Shown piece after piece: positions 1-9,633 of a stretch of 11,268 nucleotides of DNA (positions are counted from its first letter, which is position 1; the number at the start of each line of letters is the position of its first letter). Origin of the DNA: Thiohalobacter sp. (GTDB lineage: Bacteria > Pseudomonadota > Gammaproteobacteria > DSM-19610); assembly GCA_027010005.1 (NCBI GenBank), contig JALVCM010000230.1, positions 1 through 11,268 on the forward strand, read 5' to 3'. The position numbers were made by a program, and so were the translations under genes. Below the pieces are notes generated by a model. It did no database searches. It was given only the letters and a program-made list of their open reading frames with translations, and was not told where the DNA came from.

Positions 1-891
1 GATGCGCCAGAGCAGTTTCAGCCAGCCCAGTGGCAGCAACCGGCCGTTCAGGTCCCTGATCGCCTGGTTGATATCCGGCAGGCCGATAATCATTGCTGCA
101 GGTTCGCCATCGACTTCGGCAATCTGCACAAAGTCATCGTCCAGCAGCAGGGTCATGGCCTTGCCGACTTCCCTGAACTCCGCCTCGGTGAAAGGCACAA
201 ATCCCCAGTTTTCCGACCAGGCGTCGTTGAAAATATGCCGCAGGGTGGCGAGTTCCTCGTCGAGCTTTTTGCGGTTGAGGGGGCGCAGGTGTATACGGCC
301 GGACAGACGTTCCAGCAGGCGTTTTACAGTCGGGGAGAACTGGTAGGTTGGTGGCTGGTGGTAGGCCAGGAGGTCAAGGGCCGGTGCATAGCCGTTGGCT
401 TCTACCTGCGCGCCGTAATAGGGCGGGTTATACCCCATCATGATGCATGGCGGGGTATCGAAACCATCAACCAGCAAGCCGGCCTCCTCGTTGATTGACA
501 GGGTAAACGGCCCTGTGGCGTGCGTCATGTTCTCGTTGATCAACCATGACTCGGCGGCCTGGAACAGCGCGCTGAAAATGGCCGGGTCATCCCTGGCTTC
601 GAGGCTGCCGAAATAGCCGGTGCGCTCTTCAAACCGCTCAAGGAACAGCTGATCGATCTGTGCCGTGATACGGCCAACGGGTCTGTCGTTACGGTAGGCG
701 ACCCAGCCTCGCCAGCGGGCATGTTCAAAAAACGGGTTTTTGTGGCTATAACGCTGTTTCTGCTCGATCAGTAGCGGGGCGACCCAGTTGGGATCGTTGC
801 GGTAGATGGACCAGGGCAGGTGAATGAAGTCCCTGAGCCGGGCCTTGCTGTCCACGCAGCGGACGTCCAGATCATCCTTGTCGGCTTGCAT
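1..891 (-). CDS. GNAT-fold N-acyltransferase, bacterial ceramide synthase-like (C-terminus off window)
   Basis: The reading frame is open for 297 codons from ATG 891-889 to the left edge, so the stop and the C-terminus are not seen. An in-frame stop at 903-901, four codons upstream, fixes the start region; the ribosome site is weak. Visible blocks are LPWSIYRNDPNWVAPLL (about residues 24-40), KNPFFEHA (51-58), GRITAQIDQ (73-81), GPFTLSINEEAGLLVDGFD (127-145), NPPYYG (155-160) and NDAWSENWGFVPF (222-234). From memory these blocks are typical of a proteobacterial GNAT-related family of roughly 370-400 residues. Members are often annotated as N-acetyltransferase. It includes the Caulobacter ceramide synthase, which N-acylates a sphingoid base with an acyl-CoA. 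No signal peptide is seen, so it is probably cytosolic. The divergent acyl-AMP ligase and the nearby SDR reductase support a sphingolipid role, which remains inference; it could acylate another amine. Confidence 0.85.
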   Translation of the reverse strand, partial: MQADKDDLDVRCVDSKARLRDFIHLPWSIYRNDPNWVAPLLIEQKQRYSHKNPFFEHARWRGWVAYRNDRPVGRITAQIDQLFLERFEERTGYFGSLEARDDPAIFSALFQAAESWLINENMTHATGPFTLSINEEAGLLVDGFDTPPCIMMGYNPPYYGAQVEANGYAPALDLLAYHQPPTYQFSPTVKRLLERLSGRIHLRPLNRKKLDEELATLRHIFNDAWSENWGFVPFTEAEFREVGKAMTLLLDDDFVQIAEVDGEPAAMIIGLPDINQAIRDLNGRLLPLGWLKLLWRI

Positions 892-922
892 CGAGCTTCG
901 CTAGTTGGCTGTCGGGGCGCTG

Positions 923-951
923 ATCATACCGGGCCAGCGAGTGTGTCGCTA
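923..951 (-). promoter_or_regulatory. possible activator-dependent promoter of the acyltransferase gene
   Basis: On the minus strand TATGAT (928-923) is a good -10 match, preceded at 17 bp by a poor -35, TAGCGA (951-946). A start about 7 bp downstream would give a leader of roughly 25 nt before ATG 891. The weak -35 would fit activation from the CRP-like site, whose centre lies about 55 bp upstream of that start. That is not one of the standard CRP activation distances, so this is tentative. Confidence 0.25.
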
Positions 952-960
952 CCTGGGGTA

Positions 961-982
961 TAATGTGTTGTGCATCACATTT
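961..982. promoter_or_regulatory. CRP/FNR-family operator (CRP-like palindrome)
   Basis: The 16 bp core reads TGTGT-N6-TCACA, one base from the CRP consensus TGTGA-N6-TCACA. The flanks extend the dyad to AATGTG (962-967) and CACATT (976-981), with a further T at 982 as in the 22 bp consensus. It lies 70 bp upstream of the acyltransferase start and about 380 bp upstream of the ligase start. Control of the acyltransferase by a CRP/Vfr-type regulator is therefore the simpler reading. The dyad is seen directly; the binding protein is inferred. Confidence 0.55.
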
Positions 983-1011
983 TCTTTATGAGCAAGCACT
1001 TATACTTCTGG

Positions 1012-1049
1012 AGCAGAAAATTGACCGCAAAACTGGTCTGAATTTTGCT
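1012..1049. repeat. imperfect inverted repeat / hairpin
   Basis: The left arm (1012-1026) and right arm (1035-1049) pair as AGC, AAAATT and GACC blocks, with a two-base bulge on each side and an 8 nt loop. It is not followed by a T-tract, so it is not a typical terminator. It could be a structured leader element or chance folding of AT-rich DNA. Confidence 0.35.
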
Positions 1050-1126
1050 TAAATAGCAGGCGGTATTTGTTGGGTATGCTAACCCCCGGGTTTACAGGGT
1101 TTTGCGCAAAGTGTTGTATTATTTCT

Positions 1127-1275
1127 GTCGCGAATTGGCGACATTTCTGAAATAAGTCCAACAAGTGCCGAAAAAACGTTGAAAAAGTATTGTGTTTTCT
1201 TCCTATTGTAGGAATAATTCACAACCGGTTGACTGAAGGGTCAAGTGCAGGCGTTGTTGTTGTGAAAAAACAACG
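1127..1275. promoter_or_regulatory. cluster of four short inverted repeats upstream of the acyl-AMP ligase
   Basis: Four dyads occur within 150 bp. GTCGC-N6-GCGAC (1127-1142) has a nearly symmetric AATT centre. TTCCTA-N3-TAGGAA (1200-1214) has perfect arms. TTGAC-N6-GTCAA (1229-1244) also has perfect arms. CGTTGTT-N10-AACAACG (1252-1275) could form a hairpin. Any of them could be an operator. The second overlaps a weak candidate -10 (1204-1209). Short dyads are also expected by chance in such DNA, so none is assigned to a regulator. Confidence 0.3.
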
Positions 1276-1364
1276 TTGCCAGACGGGATGTGTGTTTGCA
1301 CGATTAGTGTGTATGACAAGACACCATCACCTTGCCGGTCGGTAATAACTGAAACTTTTTTGGG

Positions 1365-3191
1365 GTGTTCCTGTCACTGACCGGAACCGTACACAATCCT
1401 CAAACAGGGAAAAGACTTTTGGGCGCTGAATCGACACCAACTTTACACAATCTGCCGTTTCGTGCCGCTGATTTCGCAACCCTGCCCGAAGCACTCGACT
1501 ATGCTGCCAGGGGCGAGACGGGTGCAAACTTCTACACGGGTCGGGGCAAGCTCTATGCGACCATGCCTTACGCCGAGTTGCGGGACGCATCTCGCGTACT
1601 CGCTCGCAAACTGCTTGGCATGGGCCTGCAGAAGGGCGATCGCGTTGCACTGGTGGCCGAAACCAACCCGGATTTTCTGAGATTCTTTTTTGCCTGCCAG
1701 TATGCCGGGCTGATTCCCGTTGCCTTGCCGGCCTCGGTGAATCTTGGCGGGCACACGGTTTATGTCACCCAGTTGCGTGGCCTGCTCGAGAGCAGCATGG
1801 CTTCCGTTGCGATGGCACCGGAAGGTTATGCGTCATTCCTCGAGGAAGCCGGTGACGGCCTGGGCCTGAAACTGATTGGCTCACCTGACGTTTTCGATGC
1901 TTTGCCGGAGGCAGAGATTGAATTCCCGTCTATCCGGCCGGGAGACATTGCCTACATCCAGTACACCTCTGGCAGTACACGCTTCCCGCGTGGTGTTGTC
2001 ATCGAGCAGGGTGCCGTGATGAGCAACCTGGGCGGGATCATCCGTCACGGTGTTTGCATTGGTCCCGGTGACCGTTGTTTCTCCTGGTTGCCGTTCTACC
2101 ACGACATGGGGCTGGTTGGCCTGGTGCTGGTACCGGTTGCTTCACAGATTTCCGTCGATTATCTCGACACGCGCGAATTCGCCATGCGTCCCCGTCAGTG
2201 GCTGAACCTGATGACGCAGACGAAAGCAACCATCTCCTTCGGGCCTCCGTTCGGTTACGAGTTGTGTACCCGTCGTCTGCGCCCGGGCGAGGCAACAAAA
2301 TATGACCTGAGCAACTGGCGTGTTGCGGGGGTTGGTGCGGAAATGATCCGTTCCGAGACACTGACGCGCTTTGCCAAGGCACTGGCACCGGCGGGCTTTG
2401 ACGACAGGGCCTTCCTTGCCTGTTACGGCATGGCCGAGTGTTCGCTGGCAATCAGTTTTGCACCGTTGTTCGAGAAGCATTCAACAGACTGTGTCGATGG
2501 TGATCACCATTCGGATCACCAGGAAGCCTTGCCGATTCATCTCTCCGAGAATCCCGGTCGTGCACGTTGCTTTGTGGACTGCGGGCAGCCGTTACCTGAT
2601 TACGAAGTCGAGATTCGTAATGAAGAAGGCAAGGTATTGTCCGACCGCCTGAGTGGATCGATCTTTGTGCGTGGCCCGAGCGTGATGTCCGGTTATTTCA
2701 ATGCACCGGAAGAAACCGCAGCCTGCCTTTCTGACGACGGCTGGCTGAATACCGGTGACGTGGGTTATCGTGTCAACGGCAACCTGATTATCACAGGCCG
2801 CAAGAAGGACCTGATTATCATCAATGGCCGCAACATCTGGCCGCAGGACCTGGAGTACCTGGCGGAACACCAGCCGGAAATCCGCATTGGTGACGCGCTG
2901 GCGTTCTCTGTACCCGGCCCGGACAATGATGAGATCTGTATACTGGTTGTGCAGTGCCGTGAATCGGATCCCGTCAAGCGAGCAGACCTGGCCGACCGGC
3001 TGAACCGCCTGGTTCACATGGAGCTGGGTATCGATGTGTTTGTCGAGCTGGTGCCGCTGCATACCCTGCCGCGTACCTCGTCTGGCAAGTTATCGCGTTC
3101 CAAGGCACGCCAGAACTTTATTGAGTCTCACGACATCAGTAACCTGGCGGCTGCCTCCGATGAGCCGGAGTTGAAACAGGGTTCGGTCTGA
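1365..3191 (+). CDS. fatty-acyl-AMP ligase / acyl-ACP synthetase-like adenylate-forming enzyme
   Basis: This is a 608-residue ANL-superfamily enzyme that should activate a fatty acid with ATP to acyl-AMP and pass it to an acyl carrier protein or CoA. Motifs are in order: YIQYTSGST (197-205, ATP loop), WLPFYHDMGLVG in the A4 region, YGMAE (354-358), TGD (463-465), GRKKD (478-482, hinge region), and the C-terminal catalytic lysine in SSGK (K575). The RPRQWL...FGYELC segment resembles fatty-acyl-AMP ligases rather than short-chain CoA ligases. No carrier domain is fused and no signal peptide is seen. The start is uncertain. GTG 1365 has no clear ribosome site. In-frame TTG 1419 is preceded at 8 nt by AGGGA and would give about 590 residues; a stop at 1350 bounds the frame. 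By its neighbours, it may be the acyl-ACP synthetase (AasR-type) of ceramide synthesis; the acyl acceptor is unproven. Confidence 0.9.
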   Translation: MFLSLTGTVHNPQTGKRLLGAESTPTLHNLPFRAADFATLPEALDYAARGETGANFYTGRGKLYATMPYAELRDASRVLARKLLGMGLQKGDRVALVAETNPDFLRFFFACQYAGLIPVALPASVNLGGHTVYVTQLRGLLESSMASVAMAPEGYASFLEEAGDGLGLKLIGSPDVFDALPEAEIEFPSIRPGDIAYIQYTSGSTRFPRGVVIEQGAVMSNLGGIIRHGVCIGPGDRCFSWLPFYHDMGLVGLVLVPVASQISVDYLDTREFAMRPRQWLNLMTQTKATISFGPPFGYELCTRRLRPGEATKYDLSNWRVAGVGAEMIRSETLTRFAKALAPAGFDDRAFLACYGMAECSLAISFAPLFEKHSTDCVDGDHHSDHQEALPIHLSENPGRARCFVDCGQPLPDYEVEIRNEEGKVLSDRLSGSIFVRGPSVMSGYFNAPEETAACLSDDGWLNTGDVGYRVNGNLIITGRKKDLIIINGRNIWPQDLEYLAEHQPEIRIGDALAFSVPGPDNDEICILVVQCRESDPVKRADLADRLNRLVHMELGIDVFVELVPLHTLPRTSSGKLSRSKARQNFIESHDISNLAAASDEPELKQGSV

Positions 3192-3214
3192 TCTACGCGT
3201 CATTGCGGCTAATG

Positions 3215-3248
3215 CGTCATTCCGGCGCAGGCCTCCGCCGGCATGACG
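3215..3248. repeat. intergenic inverted repeat (REP-like)
   Basis: Arms at 3215-3227 and 3236-3248 pair at 12 of 13 positions around an 8 nt centre. The left arm is preceded at 3197-3209 by a near-copy of its own first part (GCGTCATTGCGGC against GCGTCATTCCGGC). The words GTCATT, GGCGCAGG and ATGAC recur in the longer inverted repeat at 9552-9633, which suggests one dispersed family. It lies 23 bp after the ligase stop. Confidence 0.6.
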
Positions 3249-3278
3249 GTCGTCGTGATAATCAGAGTTTTGGCAGAA

Positions 3279-3310
3279 AAAATAACCGGCTTCGGCCGGT
3301 TATTTTGTTT
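3279..3310. terminator. intrinsic terminator, usable on both strands
   Basis: A perfect 12 bp stem (3279-3290 with 3295-3306) closes on a TTCG tetraloop. Rightward it is followed by TTTTGTTT; leftward the complementary strand reads TTTTTT. It lies 87 bp beyond the acyl-AMP ligase stop and only 32 bp before the SDR start. It would end the ligase transcript and could also stop leftward antisense transcripts crossing the SDR gene. Confidence 0.85.
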
Positions 3311-3342
3311 CAGGCCCGGAATTTTCTTCAGGACAAAGGCTG

Positions 3343-4284
3343 ATGTCGAAACAGATTGCCATTACCGGTGCCAGTGGCTTTATTGGCCGGAGCCTGTGCC
3401 AGCGGCTGTATGCCGGCGGCTGGCGTGTCCGGTTATTGCTGCGTTCCCCCGCCAGCGATGCACTGTTTGATGGCATCAATGCCGACATTGTTCGTGGTGA
3501 TCTCCATGATGAGGTGGCGCTGTCGCGTTTTGTTGAAGGGGCATACGCTGTTATTCACTGTGCCGGTGTGGTGCGTGGTGCCAGTCAGCAGGATTTCGAC
3601 CGCGTTAATGTAGAAGGTCTGGCCCGGTTGCTGGATGCCATAGAGCGCACCGAAACTTCGCCACGGCTTTTTGTGTTGTCTTCACTTGCCGCGCGTGAAC
3701 CGGGCCTGTCTTTCTACGCGGCCAGCAAGCGCCGCGGGGAACAATTGCTCGAACAACGGGCGGGTGGACTGAACTGGTTTGCGCTGCGCCCACCGGCTGT
3801 GTATGGCCCCGGTGACCGTGAAATGCTGCCGTTGTTTCGTGCCATGGCAAAAGGGTTTGCACCGGTGCCCGGTAAAAAGACCTCGCGATTTTCGATGGTC
3901 TACGTCGAGGACATTGCAGAGCTGGTTGTTGCCTGGCTGGAGCGCGAGACGGTGACACCCGGTATCTATACGTTACACGACGGGCGTGTCGGTGGTTACG
4001 ACTGGTACGATGTCTGTCAGACCGTTTCCGGGATTTGTCAGCGTCCCGTGCGCCCGGTCGAGATACCTCACCTGCTGCTGGATGCCCCTGCCTGGCTGAA
4101 CAGATACCTGTCGCGCTGGCTGGGTTATGCGCCCATGCTGACACCGGAAAAACTGCGTGAACTGCGGCATCCGGACTGGGTGTGTGATAACACCGGGCTG
4201 AGTGAAGTACTTGACTGGCAGCCGCGCATCCAACTCAGGGAAGGCCTGCTGAAAACACCTGGCTGGTCATCGCTCAATCGATAG
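3343..4284 (+). CDS. NAD(P)-dependent epimerase/dehydratase-family reductase (extended SDR, CerR-like)
   Basis: This 313-residue extended short-chain dehydrogenase has the nucleotide-binding motif TGASGFIG (8-15), the SS pair (S113-S114) and the catalytic Y125-x3-K129 (YAASK). The substrate-side block is RPPAVYGPGDREMLPLFRAM. ATG 3343 is supported by AGGA at 3330-3333. There is no transmembrane segment or signal peptide. Family members in this size class include CerR of Caulobacter, which takes part in the ketone-reduction step of ceramide synthesis. Because an acyl-AMP ligase and a ceramide synthase-like acyltransferase sit just upstream, reduction of a 3-oxo-sphinganine-type intermediate is the favoured guess. 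A nucleotide-sugar or other SDR substrate cannot be excluded. A terminator directly before the start means transcription needs read-through or a promoter not recognised here. The 3' end overlaps the convergent FAD oxidase by 11 bp. Confidence 0.88.
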   Translation: MSKQIAITGASGFIGRSLCQRLYAGGWRVRLLLRSPASDALFDGINADIVRGDLHDEVALSRFVEGAYAVIHCAGVVRGASQQDFDRVNVEGLARLLDAIERTETSPRLFVLSSLAAREPGLSFYAASKRRGEQLLEQRAGGLNWFALRPPAVYGPGDREMLPLFRAMAKGFAPVPGKKTSRFSMVYVEDIAELVVAWLERETVTPGIYTLHDGRVGGYDWYDVCQTVSGICQRPVRPVEIPHLLLDAPAWLNRYLSRWLGYAPMLTPEKLRELRHPDWVCDNTGLSEVLDWQPRIQLREGLLKTPGWSSLNR

Positions 4285-5656
4285 CCGGCAGTGCCTTGCC
4301 CGGGTTGAGTATGCCCTTCGGGTCGAACTGCTGCTTGATGGCGTGCATCAGCTGCAGGCTGTCAGCACCAATCTCCCTTGCCACCCAGTCACGTTTCACC
4401 AGGCCGATACCGTGTTCGCCGGACAGCGTGCCGCCCAGTTCGAGCACTGTGCTGAACACATCTTCAAGACAGGCTTCTGCATGTGCCTGTTGCCCGGCAT
4501 CGTCCGGGTCGTAGAGCAGGTTGACGTGCAGGTTGCCATTACCGGCGTGGCCGAAGTTGACAATGTGAATCGCATGCTTTTCTGAAAGCGCAGACAACCT
4601 GTCGACCAGCGCCGGAATACAGGATACCGGCACAACAACGTCTTCATTGATTTTTTTCGGCGCCACGCGCCGCAGGGCAGGTGACAGTGCCTTGCGCACA
4701 TCCCACAGTGCTGCGACCTCAGCGGCACTGTTTGCCTGGTGTACAACCAGGCAGCCGGGTGTTTTGGCACTGCCGGTAACCTGTCCGGCAAGTTCATCGA
4801 CCTGCGAGGCAAGGCCATCGACCTCGATAATCAGTAATGCACCGGTTTCACTGGTCAGGCTTCCCGCCAGTTCACTGCGCACCATATCGATCGCGTTCCC
4901 GTCCATGAATTCCAGTGCGCAGGGCGTGACCGGGCTGGCCATGATGTTGGCGACCGCTTCGGCGGCACTGTGCATGTCACGATACTCTGCGAGCAGGGTA
5001 CGTTTTGCCGGTTGTAAGGGCGTCAGTTTGAGCGTGGCTTCAGTGATAATTCCCAGCGTACCTTCGGAACCGATCAGCAGGCGCGTCAGGTCATAACCGA
5101 CCACGCCCTTTGTGGTGCGAACACCCGTGCGCAAGGTGCGGCCGTCACCGGTAACAACACGAAGCCCCAGGGTGTTGTCGCGTGGTGTTCCATACTTGAC
5201 TGCGCGTGGCCCCGCCGAGTTATAGGCAAGGTTGCCGCCCAGGGTGCAGACGGCGGCACTGGTCGGGTCGGGTGGCCAGAAGAACCCCTGTTCGGCAGCG
5301 GCCTGTTGTACCTGCTGGTTGGTAATCCCGGGTTCGGCCACCATCAGGCGGTTGTCCCGGTCGAGTTCCAGCAGGCGGTTCATCCGGTGCATCGAAATGA
5401 CAATGGATTGTTTGTCCAGCGGTACCGTGGCGCCGGTGGTGCCAGTGCCCTGGCCACGGGCCAGCAACGGGGTGTCATGCGCGTAACAGGCACGCACAAT
5501 ATCGACGACCTGGTCGTGGGTGGTCGGCAGCGCAACCGCCAGGGGTTGCCCCTGCAGCTTGCTGTTATCGTAGCCGTAGGTATGGCAGTCGGCCGGGTCG
5601 GTCAGCAGGCTGTCACCCAGTGAGGCGCGTAGTGCTTCAATAACGTCCTGCGACAT
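4274..5656 (-). CDS. FAD-linked 2-hydroxyacid dehydrogenase (GlcD / D-lactate dehydrogenase class)
   Basis: The 460-residue product has the two-domain layout of the GlcD/LDHD flavoproteins. An N-terminal PCMH-type FAD domain carries RGQGTGTTGA (67-76), PPDPTSAAVCTLGGNLAYNS and GSEGTLGIIT. A C-terminal FAD-oxidase domain carries GHAGNGN (369-375) and SGEHGIG (412-418), whose histidines belong to the active-site region of this family. It should oxidise a D-2-hydroxyacid such as D-lactate or glycolate and pass electrons to a quinone or cytochrome; the substrate cannot be read from sequence. No membrane segment is present. ATG 5656 has GAGG four bases upstream. It begins 31 bp after the dolP stop, so it is probably the last gene of the lpoA-yraN-dolP operon. 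No terminator follows it before the overlapping SDR gene. Confidence 0.93.
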   Translation of the reverse strand: MSQDVIEALRASLGDSLLTDPADCHTYGYDNSKLQGQPLAVALPTTHDQVVDIVRACYAHDTPLLARGQGTGTTGATVPLDKQSIVISMHRMNRLLELDRDNRLMVAEPGITNQQVQQAAAEQGFFWPPDPTSAAVCTLGGNLAYNSAGPRAVKYGTPRDNTLGLRVVTGDGRTLRTGVRTTKGVVGYDLTRLLIGSEGTLGIITEATLKLTPLQPAKRTLLAEYRDMHSAAEAVANIMASPVTPCALEFMDGNAIDMVRSELAGSLTSETGALLIIEVDGLASQVDELAGQVTGSAKTPGCLVVHQANSAAEVAALWDVRKALSPALRRVAPKKINEDVVVPVSCIPALVDRLSALSEKHAIHIVNFGHAGNGNLHVNLLYDPDDAGQQAHAEACLEDVFSTVLELGGTLSGEHGIGLVKRDWVAREIGADSLQLMHAIKQQFDPKGILNPGKALPAID

Positions 5657-5687: not shown

Positions 5688-6275
5688 CTAGTCGAGGTAT
5701 TCAAACAGTTTGACGATACGTTGCACACCCTTGACCTGGCGGGCCTTGTCGGTGGCGGCATCGGCTTCGGCATGGCTCACCAGTCCAAGCAGGTAAACAG
5801 TACCGTTTTCCGTGACAACCTTGATGCGGGTCGGGTCAAAGCCTTTCAGCTTGACGGAAAGCAGGGATGTCTTGACCTTGGTGGTAATCCAGGTGTCGCT
5901 GGAGCGCGTCATCATCGAACTGGGTGCGGCGACCTTTATTTCGTTGTGCACCCGCCGTACTTTTTTGGCGCGGCGCGCAATATCCCCGGCGCGTTCACGC
6001 ATGGCGCCGGTGGGCGCTTCCCCGGACAGTAATACAACACCGTCATAGCTGGTAATGTTGATATGTGCCTGTTTGCTGATTTCCGGGTCCTTGTTCAGGG
6101 CGCTGCGGATGCGCAGCTCGATGGACTGGTCTTCAATGACAGTACCCGCTGTGCGGCGATCGTGTGCCAGCGATGCCGTGGTCGCGGCACCACCAACGAC
6201 CAGTGGTGCACAGGCGTTGAGCAATACGGTTGCAGTCAGTAGTGCTACAGGGGCCAGCCAGCGGTTTTTCATCAT
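5688..6275 (-). CDS. dolP: DolP (YraP), two-BON-domain outer-membrane lipoprotein
   Basis: The 195-residue product begins MMKNRW with a short charged region, a hydrophobic stretch and the lipobox LNAC (C22). Alanine follows the cysteine, which favours the outer membrane. Two BON domains follow, about residues 48-115 and 127-194, each with the pattern of a helix then a V-x-L-x-G strand (VVLLSGEA, TVYLLGLV). E. coli DolP has 191 residues; it supports outer-membrane integrity and division-site processes. The frame is open further upstream to 6332. ATG 6275 is preferred because GGAG lies 6 bases before it and it gives a normal signal peptide. It starts 34 bp after yraN. The E. coli neighbour diaA is missing here. 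Confidence 0.93.
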   Translation of the reverse strand: MMKNRWLAPVALLTATVLLNACAPLVVGGAATTASLAHDRRTAGTVIEDQSIELRIRSALNKDPEISKQAHINITSYDGVVLLSGEAPTGAMRERAGDIARRAKKVRRVHNEIKVAAPSSMMTRSSDTWITTKVKTSLLSVKLKGFDPTRIKVVTENGTVYLLGLVSHAEADAATDKARQVKGVQRIVKLFEYLD

Positions 6276-6309: not shown

Positions 6310-6672
6310 TCAGGCATCGGGACGGAAGGCATCCTTCAGCCAGCGTATTGCAGGCTTGTCCGCTTCCCCTTCGAGAGACACGATATCGAAGCGGGCGGCA
6401 TCGCTCCACGCCTGATGGCAGAGCATATAATACTGTGCGCAGTGTATGATGCGCACCTGTTTGCTTCTGACGACAGTTTCGGCCGCGTGCCCGTAACGTG
6501 TCTGCCGTCGGTAACGCACTTCCACGAACACCAGTATGTCCCGGTCCCGCATGACGAGGTCGATTTCACCGCCCCGGCAATGAAAGTTACGACTGACCAG
6601 CGTCAGTCCCTGGTTTTCGAGGTAATTACAGGCCAGGGCTTCGGCCCGGTCCCCTGTTTTTTTGCGATTCAT
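6310..6672 (-). CDS. yraN: YraN, UPF0102 family nuclease-fold protein
   Basis: The 120-residue protein carries the UPF0102 signature: GDRAEALACNYLENQG near the N-terminus, then RGGEIDLVMRD and VFVEVRYR. In this family the glutamate, aspartate and E-x-R/K positions form a restriction-endonuclease-like core; the cellular role is not settled. The final block (AARFDIVSLEG...IRWLKDAF) is also typical. ATG 6672 is chosen over longer in-frame options because GGAGGG lies 5 bases upstream and the protein then has the usual family length. The gene overlaps the end of lpoA by 47 bp, which suggests translational coupling, and it is followed closely by dolP, as part of the order known from E. coli. Confidence 0.93.
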   Translation of the reverse strand: MNRKKTGDRAEALACNYLENQGLTLVSRNFHCRGGEIDLVMRDRDILVFVEVRYRRQTRYGHAAETVVRSKQVRIIHCAQYYMLCHQAWSDAARFDIVSLEGEADKPAIRWLKDAFRPDA

Positions 6673-9551: not shown

Positions 9552-9633
9552 CGTCATTGCGAGCGTAGCGCGGCAATCTCCGTCAGTCTGGCGCAGGAGT
9601 TAAAGAGATTGCCGCGCTGCGCTCGTAATGACA
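9552..9633. repeat. long imperfect inverted repeat between rsmI and queG (possible terminator)
   Basis: Arms at 9552-9580 and 9605-9633 pair at 26 of 29 positions around a 24 nt centre. The centre contains GTCAGTCTGGCGCAGG, close to GTCATTCCGGCGCAGG in the repeat near 3216. The arms begin CGTCATTGCGAGCG, a word that I recall from short dispersed intergenic repeats in many proteobacteria. It begins 28 bp after the rsmI stop and ends 4 bp from the queG stop. Leftward it is followed by GCGGGTTTTTG (complement of 9539-9549), so it could terminate queG. Rightward there is no T-tract. Confidence 0.75.

Follow-up and report, generated by a model that had tools for sequence, protein, structure and literature searches.

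The described systems closest to the locus studied here are the ceramide genes of Escherichia coli B and of Caulobacter. In E. coli B, serine palmitoyltransferase (SPT) activity has been reported and AcpR and AasR have been studied, and the counterparts of cerR and cerS (epi and yghO) were assigned by homology to Caulobacter (PMC9386255). AasR charges the carrier AcpR, and SPT then condenses the acyl-AcpR with serine (PMC9386255); in the Caulobacter model, CerS then acylates and periplasmic CerR reduces (PMC11087976), and an alternative order with reduction first is mentioned in PMC11324152. An orthologous ceramide cluster has been published for E. coli BL21 (PMC9386255), further clusters for Azotobacter vinelandii and Pseudomonas luteola (PMC11324152), and 40 phyla have been reported to contain candidate sphingolipid genes (PMC11334938). 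Here, we analyzed a stretch of 11,268 nucleotides, termed the window, which is the entire contig C230 (JALVCM010000230.1) of a 2.44-Mb metagenome-assembled genome (MAG) of Thiohalobacter sp. (523 contigs, 82.4% complete, contamination estimate 1.22%). An earlier, sequence-only reading had pointed to a ceramide-type GNAT acyltransferase, an acyl-AMP ligase and a CerR-like short-chain dehydrogenase/reductase (SDR) standing together in it. All three were confirmed; the novelty for Gammaproteobacteria is smaller than that reading implied, the BL21, A. vinelandii and P. luteola clusters being orthologous and already published.

Gene identity, orthology, co-occurrence and synteny make it very probable that three of the five genes of a complete ceramide pathway, of the alpha-, beta- and gammaproteobacterial type, lie in the window; the activities, product, head group, transport and regulation discussed below are predicted from these.

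Five ceramide genes on two contigs

The left end of the window (1..891, minus strand) holds the first 297 codons of cerS, a member of the bCerS/YghO family and predicted GNAT-type N-acyltransferase for a sphingoid base. The reading frame is still open at base 1 and its 3' end is lost at the contig end, so that about 78% of the 381 amino acids of the homologue in G009, a related single-contig genome, are present. Up to the last base of the contig the fragment is 89% identical to that intact protein, and it is 48% identical to E. coli BL21 YghO over the 297 residues present. Its translation contains GPFTLSINEEAGLLVDGFD and NPPYYG, and its sole match in its own genome is CerS itself. Searches of the fragment returned no Pfam or NCBIfam match and no convincing PDB match by sequence (one ribosomal-protein match, E 0.71); the predicted structure of a full-length homologue (P0003) shows a GNAT fold. 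CerS relatives are abundant, with 7,996 of 8,000 scored candidates passing E 1e-3, and among the 120 listed some are already annotated as YghO or 'associated with Serine palmitoyltransferase'.

Divergently from cerS, an open reading frame (ORF) of 608 amino acids (1365..3191, plus strand) encodes AasR, the putative acyl-AcpR synthetase. It carries an AMP-binding domain (PF00501, E 2.9e-55), matches the fatty acyl-AMP ligase model NF006624 with 797 bits against a cut-off of 600, and is 46% identical to BL21 AasR. The true start is probably the TTG at 1419 rather than the GTG at 1365, because the first codons of the 608-residue ORF are unconserved in frame upstream of 'LGAESTPTLHNLPFRAA', where relatives have stops close by, while the AGGGAA..TTG arrangement at 1419 is preserved in most aligned relatives. 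The third gene, cerR (3343..4284, plus strand), encodes a 313-residue extended SDR and predicted ceramide reductase (Epimerase PF01370, E 4.1e-27). A search of the genome with BL21 CerR returned it as the best match, with 224 bits and 42-43% identity, the next match reaching 43 bits. Of its 47 matches among solved structures, the NAD-dependent epimerase/dehydratase 9g83 scores best (82 bits) and several are NDUFA9/39-kDa subunits of complex I, in agreement with the homology to NDUFA9 described for Caulobacter CerR (PMC11087976).

The sequence-only reading had expected the missing partners, SPT and an acyl carrier protein, left of position 1 or elsewhere, and had staked its proposal on an SPT-like gene somewhere in the genome. 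We looked for one, and both partners lie on contig C184. Among 11 matches of a PF00155 search of the genome, one on C184 (E 5.6e-56) belongs to a 396-residue alpha-oxoamine synthase (C184:5358-6545) that we identify as SPT. Among solved structures, serine palmitoyltransferases score highest against it (2x8u with 447 bits, others with 404-270), compared with 225 bits for the best 2-amino-3-ketobutyrate ligase and 171 for 8-amino-7-oxononanoate synthases (1bs0), and it is 56% identical to BL21 SPT. The remaining PF00155 matches were set aside by eye as ordinary aminotransferases or related pyridoxal-phosphate enzymes. Directly upstream of spt, and overlapping its start by 4 bp, lies an acyl carrier protein gene whose product is 42% identical to BL21 AcpR over 73 residues; the G009 copy matches the PP-binding family (PF00550, E 6e-10). 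An EPSP-synthase/MurA-type gene that follows spt in G009 is probably a bystander. With spt and acpR on C184, the five-gene ceramide pathway is thus complete in this genome by gene content.

By analogy with the described systems, AasR would activate a free fatty acid and load it onto the dedicated carrier AcpR, SPT would join acyl-AcpR and serine to 3-ketosphinganine, CerS would attach the second acyl chain and CerR would reduce the keto group, yielding (dihydro)ceramide; the order of the last two steps is taken over from the Caulobacter model. Because of the genes that lie between the two half-loci in G009, the ceramide would then most likely receive an anionic or sugar head group, and a branch of the Lpt system would carry it out in the direction of the outer membrane.

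Phylogeny and co-occurrence

For the trees, we chose cluster-linked loci (BL21, Pseudomonas, Salinicola, Tatumella, Wenzhouxiangella, alphaproteobacteria, MAGs labelled Desulfobacterales and Methylomirabilis, and relatives of the window; part of the 48 cluster loci found), used paralogues from relatives as outgroups and computed SH-like approximate likelihood-ratio (SH-aLRT) support. Cluster-linked proteins were split from paralogues with a support of 99 for SPT (40 rows) and 100 for AasR (34 rows; the run warned of long branches meeting). For CerR, a tree of 31 rows made without the long outgroup row L151 gave 100/100 for the cluster-linked group; the SDR paralogues L149 and L150, two of eight gathered, failed the filters and are left out of the CerR trees. 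All three proteins thus belong with their cluster counterparts from E. coli BL21, P. luteola, Salinicola and alphaproteobacteria, as the sequence-only reading would have it, and CerS groups with the same taxa in a tree that has no outgroup. In all four trees the protein of the window's genome adjoins that of G009.

Across 56 genomes, orthologues of spt (at least 53% identity), aasR (at least 56%) and cerR (at least 45%) occur in the same 19, namely 17 genomes of genus g1, including the one under study, one of genus g2, and G032, which belongs to another family. A cerS gene accompanies them in 18 of these 19 (G007 lacking) and in none of the 37 others, a G043 match (21% identity, E 3e-4) being excluded from the count. 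In those 37 genomes, the SPT query reaches at most 41%. The AasR query, among the matches listed, stays at or below 34% over long stretches, with higher values over short ones (54% over 82 residues), and the CerR query yields about 32% near full length, with short stretches of up to 41% and one of 29 residues at 59%. Every one of the 18 g1 and g2 genomes has spt, aasR and cerR, and the two genomes from g3, a third genus in this family, lack these three as well as cerS. This is a lineage-wide pattern rather than a stray transfer.

Layout of the cluster

In its own genome, the locus reads cerS (minus), aasR (plus) and cerR (plus) on C230, with acpR-spt on C184. In G009, the flanking genes are followed by cerR, aasR, cerS, about 19 kb of further DNA and then acpR and spt, so that the two half-loci form the ends of one cluster of about 25 kb. 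On single contigs of G002, G006, G014 and G005, cerS and spt lie roughly 16-22 kb apart; in most other group members, the half-loci are on separate contigs. In G004, a single contig of 2.447 Mb, the two half-loci (cerS/aasR/cerR and spt) are far from each other, at positions of about 0.375 and 1.868 Mb, 1-1.5 Mb apart. The CerS match in G004 covers query residues 6-175 only, and its AasR match has two in-frame stops, one of them within the unconserved leader.

We compared this layout with 20 clusters (18 of the 48 cluster loci, BL21 and G032). Fourteen have the order cerS (minus), aasR, cerR, acpR, spt; in five, all alphaproteobacterial, cerS follows spt; and one, from a Spongiibacteraceae MAG, has acpR-spt beyond cerS like the window's group. 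The split arrangement stressed by the sequence-only reading, one gene leftward and two rightward, is therefore present and ordinary; the displaced acpR-spt pair is the unusual part and a real variant. Scattered ceramide genes are already known in Sphingomonadaceae (PMC9386255; PMC11324152).

The middle of the cluster and the candidate head group

Beside cerS, G009 encodes a MobA-like/cytidylyltransferase-family protein (PF12804); Caulobacter CpgD belongs to that enzyme class (PMC12275187). The rest of the middle comprises a metallophosphoesterase, a diacylglycerol kinase (DAGK)-type lipid kinase, three PF06258 (ELM1) proteins, two PF00685 sulfotransferases, a GT4 glycosyltransferase, a Wzy_C protein, LptF, LptG, an ABC exporter, and proteins of 319 and 295 amino acids without a Pfam match. 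Candidates for a CpgD-type cytidylyltransferase and a ceramide kinase are present in G009 at the family level. Two further, related proteins of about 312 amino acids are encoded at L142:9484-10419 and by the next gene, and the one scanned had no Pfam match; this protein is 80-89% identical in G002, G006, G014 and G017, a conservation at least equal to that of SPT, and by eye may resemble a glycosyltransferase. The sulfotransferases match stretches of G002, G014 and G017, not those of G006. The window's own genome holds its share of this DNA on C152 (3,988 bp, the match starting at base 13 and running to the end) and C184. A dispersed repeat within the G009 cluster (around L142:9361-9450) has many copies in the window's own genome.

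At least four PF03739 (LptF/LptG) matches over the cut-off were found in 16 of the 19 spt genomes and in none of the other 37 (G023 has three). The window's genome has one LptF/LptG pair on C184 and another on C521. The cluster copies of the lineage form groups of their own (support 99 for LptF, 100 for LptG), to the exclusion of the other LptF/LptG pair in those genomes; a kinship with the island copies of BL21 and P. luteola has weak support for LptF (84), and the LptG tree gives no resolution on this point. For Caulobacter, a role of LptF2/LptG2 in sphingolipid transport was proposed without testing (PMC11324152). LpxC is present in 17 of the 18 g1 and g2 genomes (G006, 79% complete, being the miss, and the window's genome having a partial match at a contig edge), so presumably these organisms also make lipopolysaccharide (LPS), and we set aside the idea that a sphingolipid replaces it.

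From this gene content we tentatively suggest, as a possibility we would not yet bet on, that the lineage makes an elaborate, undescribed sphingolipid whose head group is linked through phosphate and glycosylated and, in some members, also carries sulfate. It would be made by the roughly 19 kb of genes that include the three ELM1 paralogues and the 312-residue protein, and be exported beside LPS through its own ABC exporter and LptF/LptG. A literature search, mostly excluding subscription papers, found no paper pairing Thiogranum or Thiohalobacter with a sphingolipid, and searches on the ELM1 domain and on glycosyl- or sulfotransferases with bacterial sphingolipids turned up nothing useful.

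A different candidate lipid locus was seen in the distant relative G023, in which the window CerS finds no match. At about 8575-13903 of L171 (G023:C27:24001-44000), an alpha-oxoamine synthase (432 amino acids), a small GNAT (193 amino acids), a classical SDR (258 amino acids), an extra LptF/LptG-type gene and a GT2 gene stand in a row; the locus may represent an independent route to a sphingolipid-like lipid.

The control region between cerS and aasR

The large control region noted by the sequence-only reading spans 892..1364 (473 bp, or 527 bp if aasR starts at 1419), and short elements in it are conserved across relatives. Our alignment of the cerS-to-aasR interval comprised 17 rows, namely the window, 15 relatives of the same group and the Spongiibacteraceae locus, with G016 and G007 (no cerS) left out; the elements were scored by eye. 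A candidate operator palindrome, TGTCGC-N6-GCGACA, lies at 1126..1143. Of the 16 same-group rows, 8 retain the general form TGTCG[CT]-N6-[AG]CGACA without a mismatch and the others show at least one; several relatives have TGTCGT..ACGACA. A sigma-70-like promoter candidate directed towards aasR (1190..1218, plus strand) is suggested by the conservation of AATAAT in all 16 same-group rows and of TTGTGT 17 nt before it in 15. A stringent promoter scan called no promoter in the control region. Rfam yielded no family at the gathering score within the window, and we rejected a regulatory RNA in the control region, whose conserved blocks resemble palindromic DNA sites together with a promoter.

As exact expressions, the palindrome and promoter patterns were absent before acpR-spt in the 11 sequences scanned. 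In those sequences both occurred in the cerS-aasR interval only, bar a looser palindrome match at L085 4923-4940, and because of this confinement the elements give no evidence for co-regulation with acpR-spt.

Neighboring genes

Downstream of cerR and convergent with it lies a gene for a FAD-linked oxidase (4274..5656, minus strand), probably outside the pathway, which matches TIGR00387 (glcD) with 410.8 bits, below the cut-off of 567.9; the two 3' ends overlap by 11 bp (4274-4284). A glcD gene also lies near the BL21 island, probably by coincidence. It is followed by a dolP-type lipoprotein gene with two BON domains (5688..6275, minus strand; the start was picked by eye and the longest ORF starts at 6332), whose product reaches 184.6 bits against a cut-off of 184 for NF008247. 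Among the further neighbors, YraN, LpoA, RsmI, QueG and NnrE are identifications made by eye on the translated ORFs rather than by a family search. The nearness of lpoA and dolP to the ceramide genes is no more than suggestive, as the sequence-only reading already held. The flanking gene order is the same in G009, G002, G006 and G014, as far as the stretches extend. At 9553-9632 the window also contains an inverted repeat with 28-nt arms (93% complementary), which differs from the repeat in the G009 cluster and recurs on several other contigs of the same genome.

Weighing the ceramide reading against its rivals

Several observations weigh against a complete and functional ceramide pathway. The window CerS is cut off at the contig end, so that its C-terminal part lies outside the window and its integrity is uncheckable; CerS was not found in G007 and only in pieces in G001 (at a contig edge) and G004, and the loss of cerS within the group is therefore possible on these sequences. 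The CerS tree (26 rows) is unrooted, its sole, weak outgroup candidate (L160) having given no match, and the first CerR tree (32 rows), in which L151 joins the base, gave a support of 47. Eighteen of the 19 positive genomes belong to one family and hence stand for few independent events. Fewer than four LptF/LptG matches were obtained in G006 (two), G010 (two) and G011 (three). In the window's own genome, a protein search without a positive control, which by itself shows nothing, did not find the DAGK-like kinase, and the stretch that adjoins cerS in G009 was not found either. This stretch falls between the ends of C230 and C152, and because both contigs end there we attribute the negative to a gap in the assembly and do not take it to prove that the genome lacks these genes. 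The truncated cerS, the missing kinase and the findings in G004 and G007 would all suit a pathway that in this genome survives as a relic or is broken in part, its cerS incomplete and its head-group genes lacking. We nevertheless consider this unlikely: cerS is open right up to the contig's end and close to the intact G009 protein throughout, and the stretch not found is located where two contigs of an incomplete assembly in 523 pieces break off.

The same fragmentation, with the two halves on no single contig, could be taken to mean that C184 and its spt gene come from another organism in the sample and were binned with this genome by mistake. However, C230, C152 and C184 all line up in order along a single stretch of G009, at 79-98% identity for the cluster and flanking proteins compared and 83-84% for the DNA of C152 and C184; the contamination estimate is low, and SPT, AasR, CerR and CerS are all nearest to G009, which leaves such a chimera hardly credible. 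Equally, AMP-binding ligases, GNATs and SDRs each form a large superfamily, and the three window genes might serve another lipid or natural-product pathway, for instance with a lipopeptide- or polyketide-type starter that an acyl-AMP ligase makes beside an unrelated GNAT and SDR, their likeness to ceramide genes being at the superfamily level only. The best 25 of 102 NCBIfam matches of the ligase do include other fatty acyl-AMP ligases and a nonribosomal peptide synthetase/polyketide synthase (NRPS/PKS) model, all of these 25 but NF006624 lying below their cut-offs, and none of the 24 NCBIfam matches of CerR reaches its cut-off. Yet identity to all five BL21 genes is at the orthologue level with the local order conserved, and the trees and the occurrence in the same 19 genomes as SPT point the same way. 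SPT and AcpR on C184 disfavor this alternative strongly, the ORF list of the window contains no NRPS/PKS-sized frame, and we give it very little credence. The ceramide pathway remains the reading that we adopt.

Discussion

The locus adds a gammaproteobacterial lineage, represented by public MAGs labelled Thiogranum, Thiohalobacter or Gammaproteobacteria, to the organisms that encode ceramide synthesis; Thiogranum and Thiohalobacter are sulfur oxidizers. It is mainly an extension of a known pathway. With LpxC also present, the lineage would offer a test bed for asking why a bacterium should retain LPS alongside a sphingolipid, and whether the latter is transported by the additional LptF/LptG pair.

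Compared with known systems, all five families are shared with the BL21(DE3) island (L017; yghO(cerS) | aasR-cerR-acpR-spt), in which cerS likewise diverges from aasR, cerR adjoins aasR and an LptF/LptG pair (lptG-lptF copies) lies close by. In BL21, acpR-spt directly follows cerR, whereas in this lineage it lies about 19 kb off beyond cerS (G009) or, in the MAG studied here, on a separate contig; the ELM1, sulfotransferase and ABC-exporter queries from G009 found no match in a 35-kb BL21 stretch. Caulobacter crescentus CC_1152-CC_1168 comprises five ceramide genes, the cytidylyltransferase for CPG2, a ceramide kinase, a second LptC/LptF/LptG set and a potential flippase (PMC11324152; PMC12275187); its likeness to the G009 cluster is at the family level, compared by published description only. 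Beyond the Caulobacter set, G009 has three ELM1-type genes as well as glycosyl- and sulfotransferases, in a region that is partly unassembled in the window's own genome.

In P. luteola (L117) and Salinicola peritrichatus (L110), whose SPT proteins show 59% and 63% identity, the five genes stand in the common order and in a compact layout, with a homologue of the G009 cytidylyltransferase-family protein adjoining cerS and an ABC-exporter homologue just after spt. The Spongiibacteraceae MAG (L132) joins the lineage of the window in the trees of SPT, AasR and CerR and likewise has acpR-spt beyond cerS, but differs in that only about 3 kb separate the halves, acpR-spt runs parallel to aasR and the cerS-aasR interval measures 177 bp. 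The pathway and gammaproteobacterial sphingolipid genes were thus already known, and the interesting part of this lineage is its rearranged and enlarged cluster.

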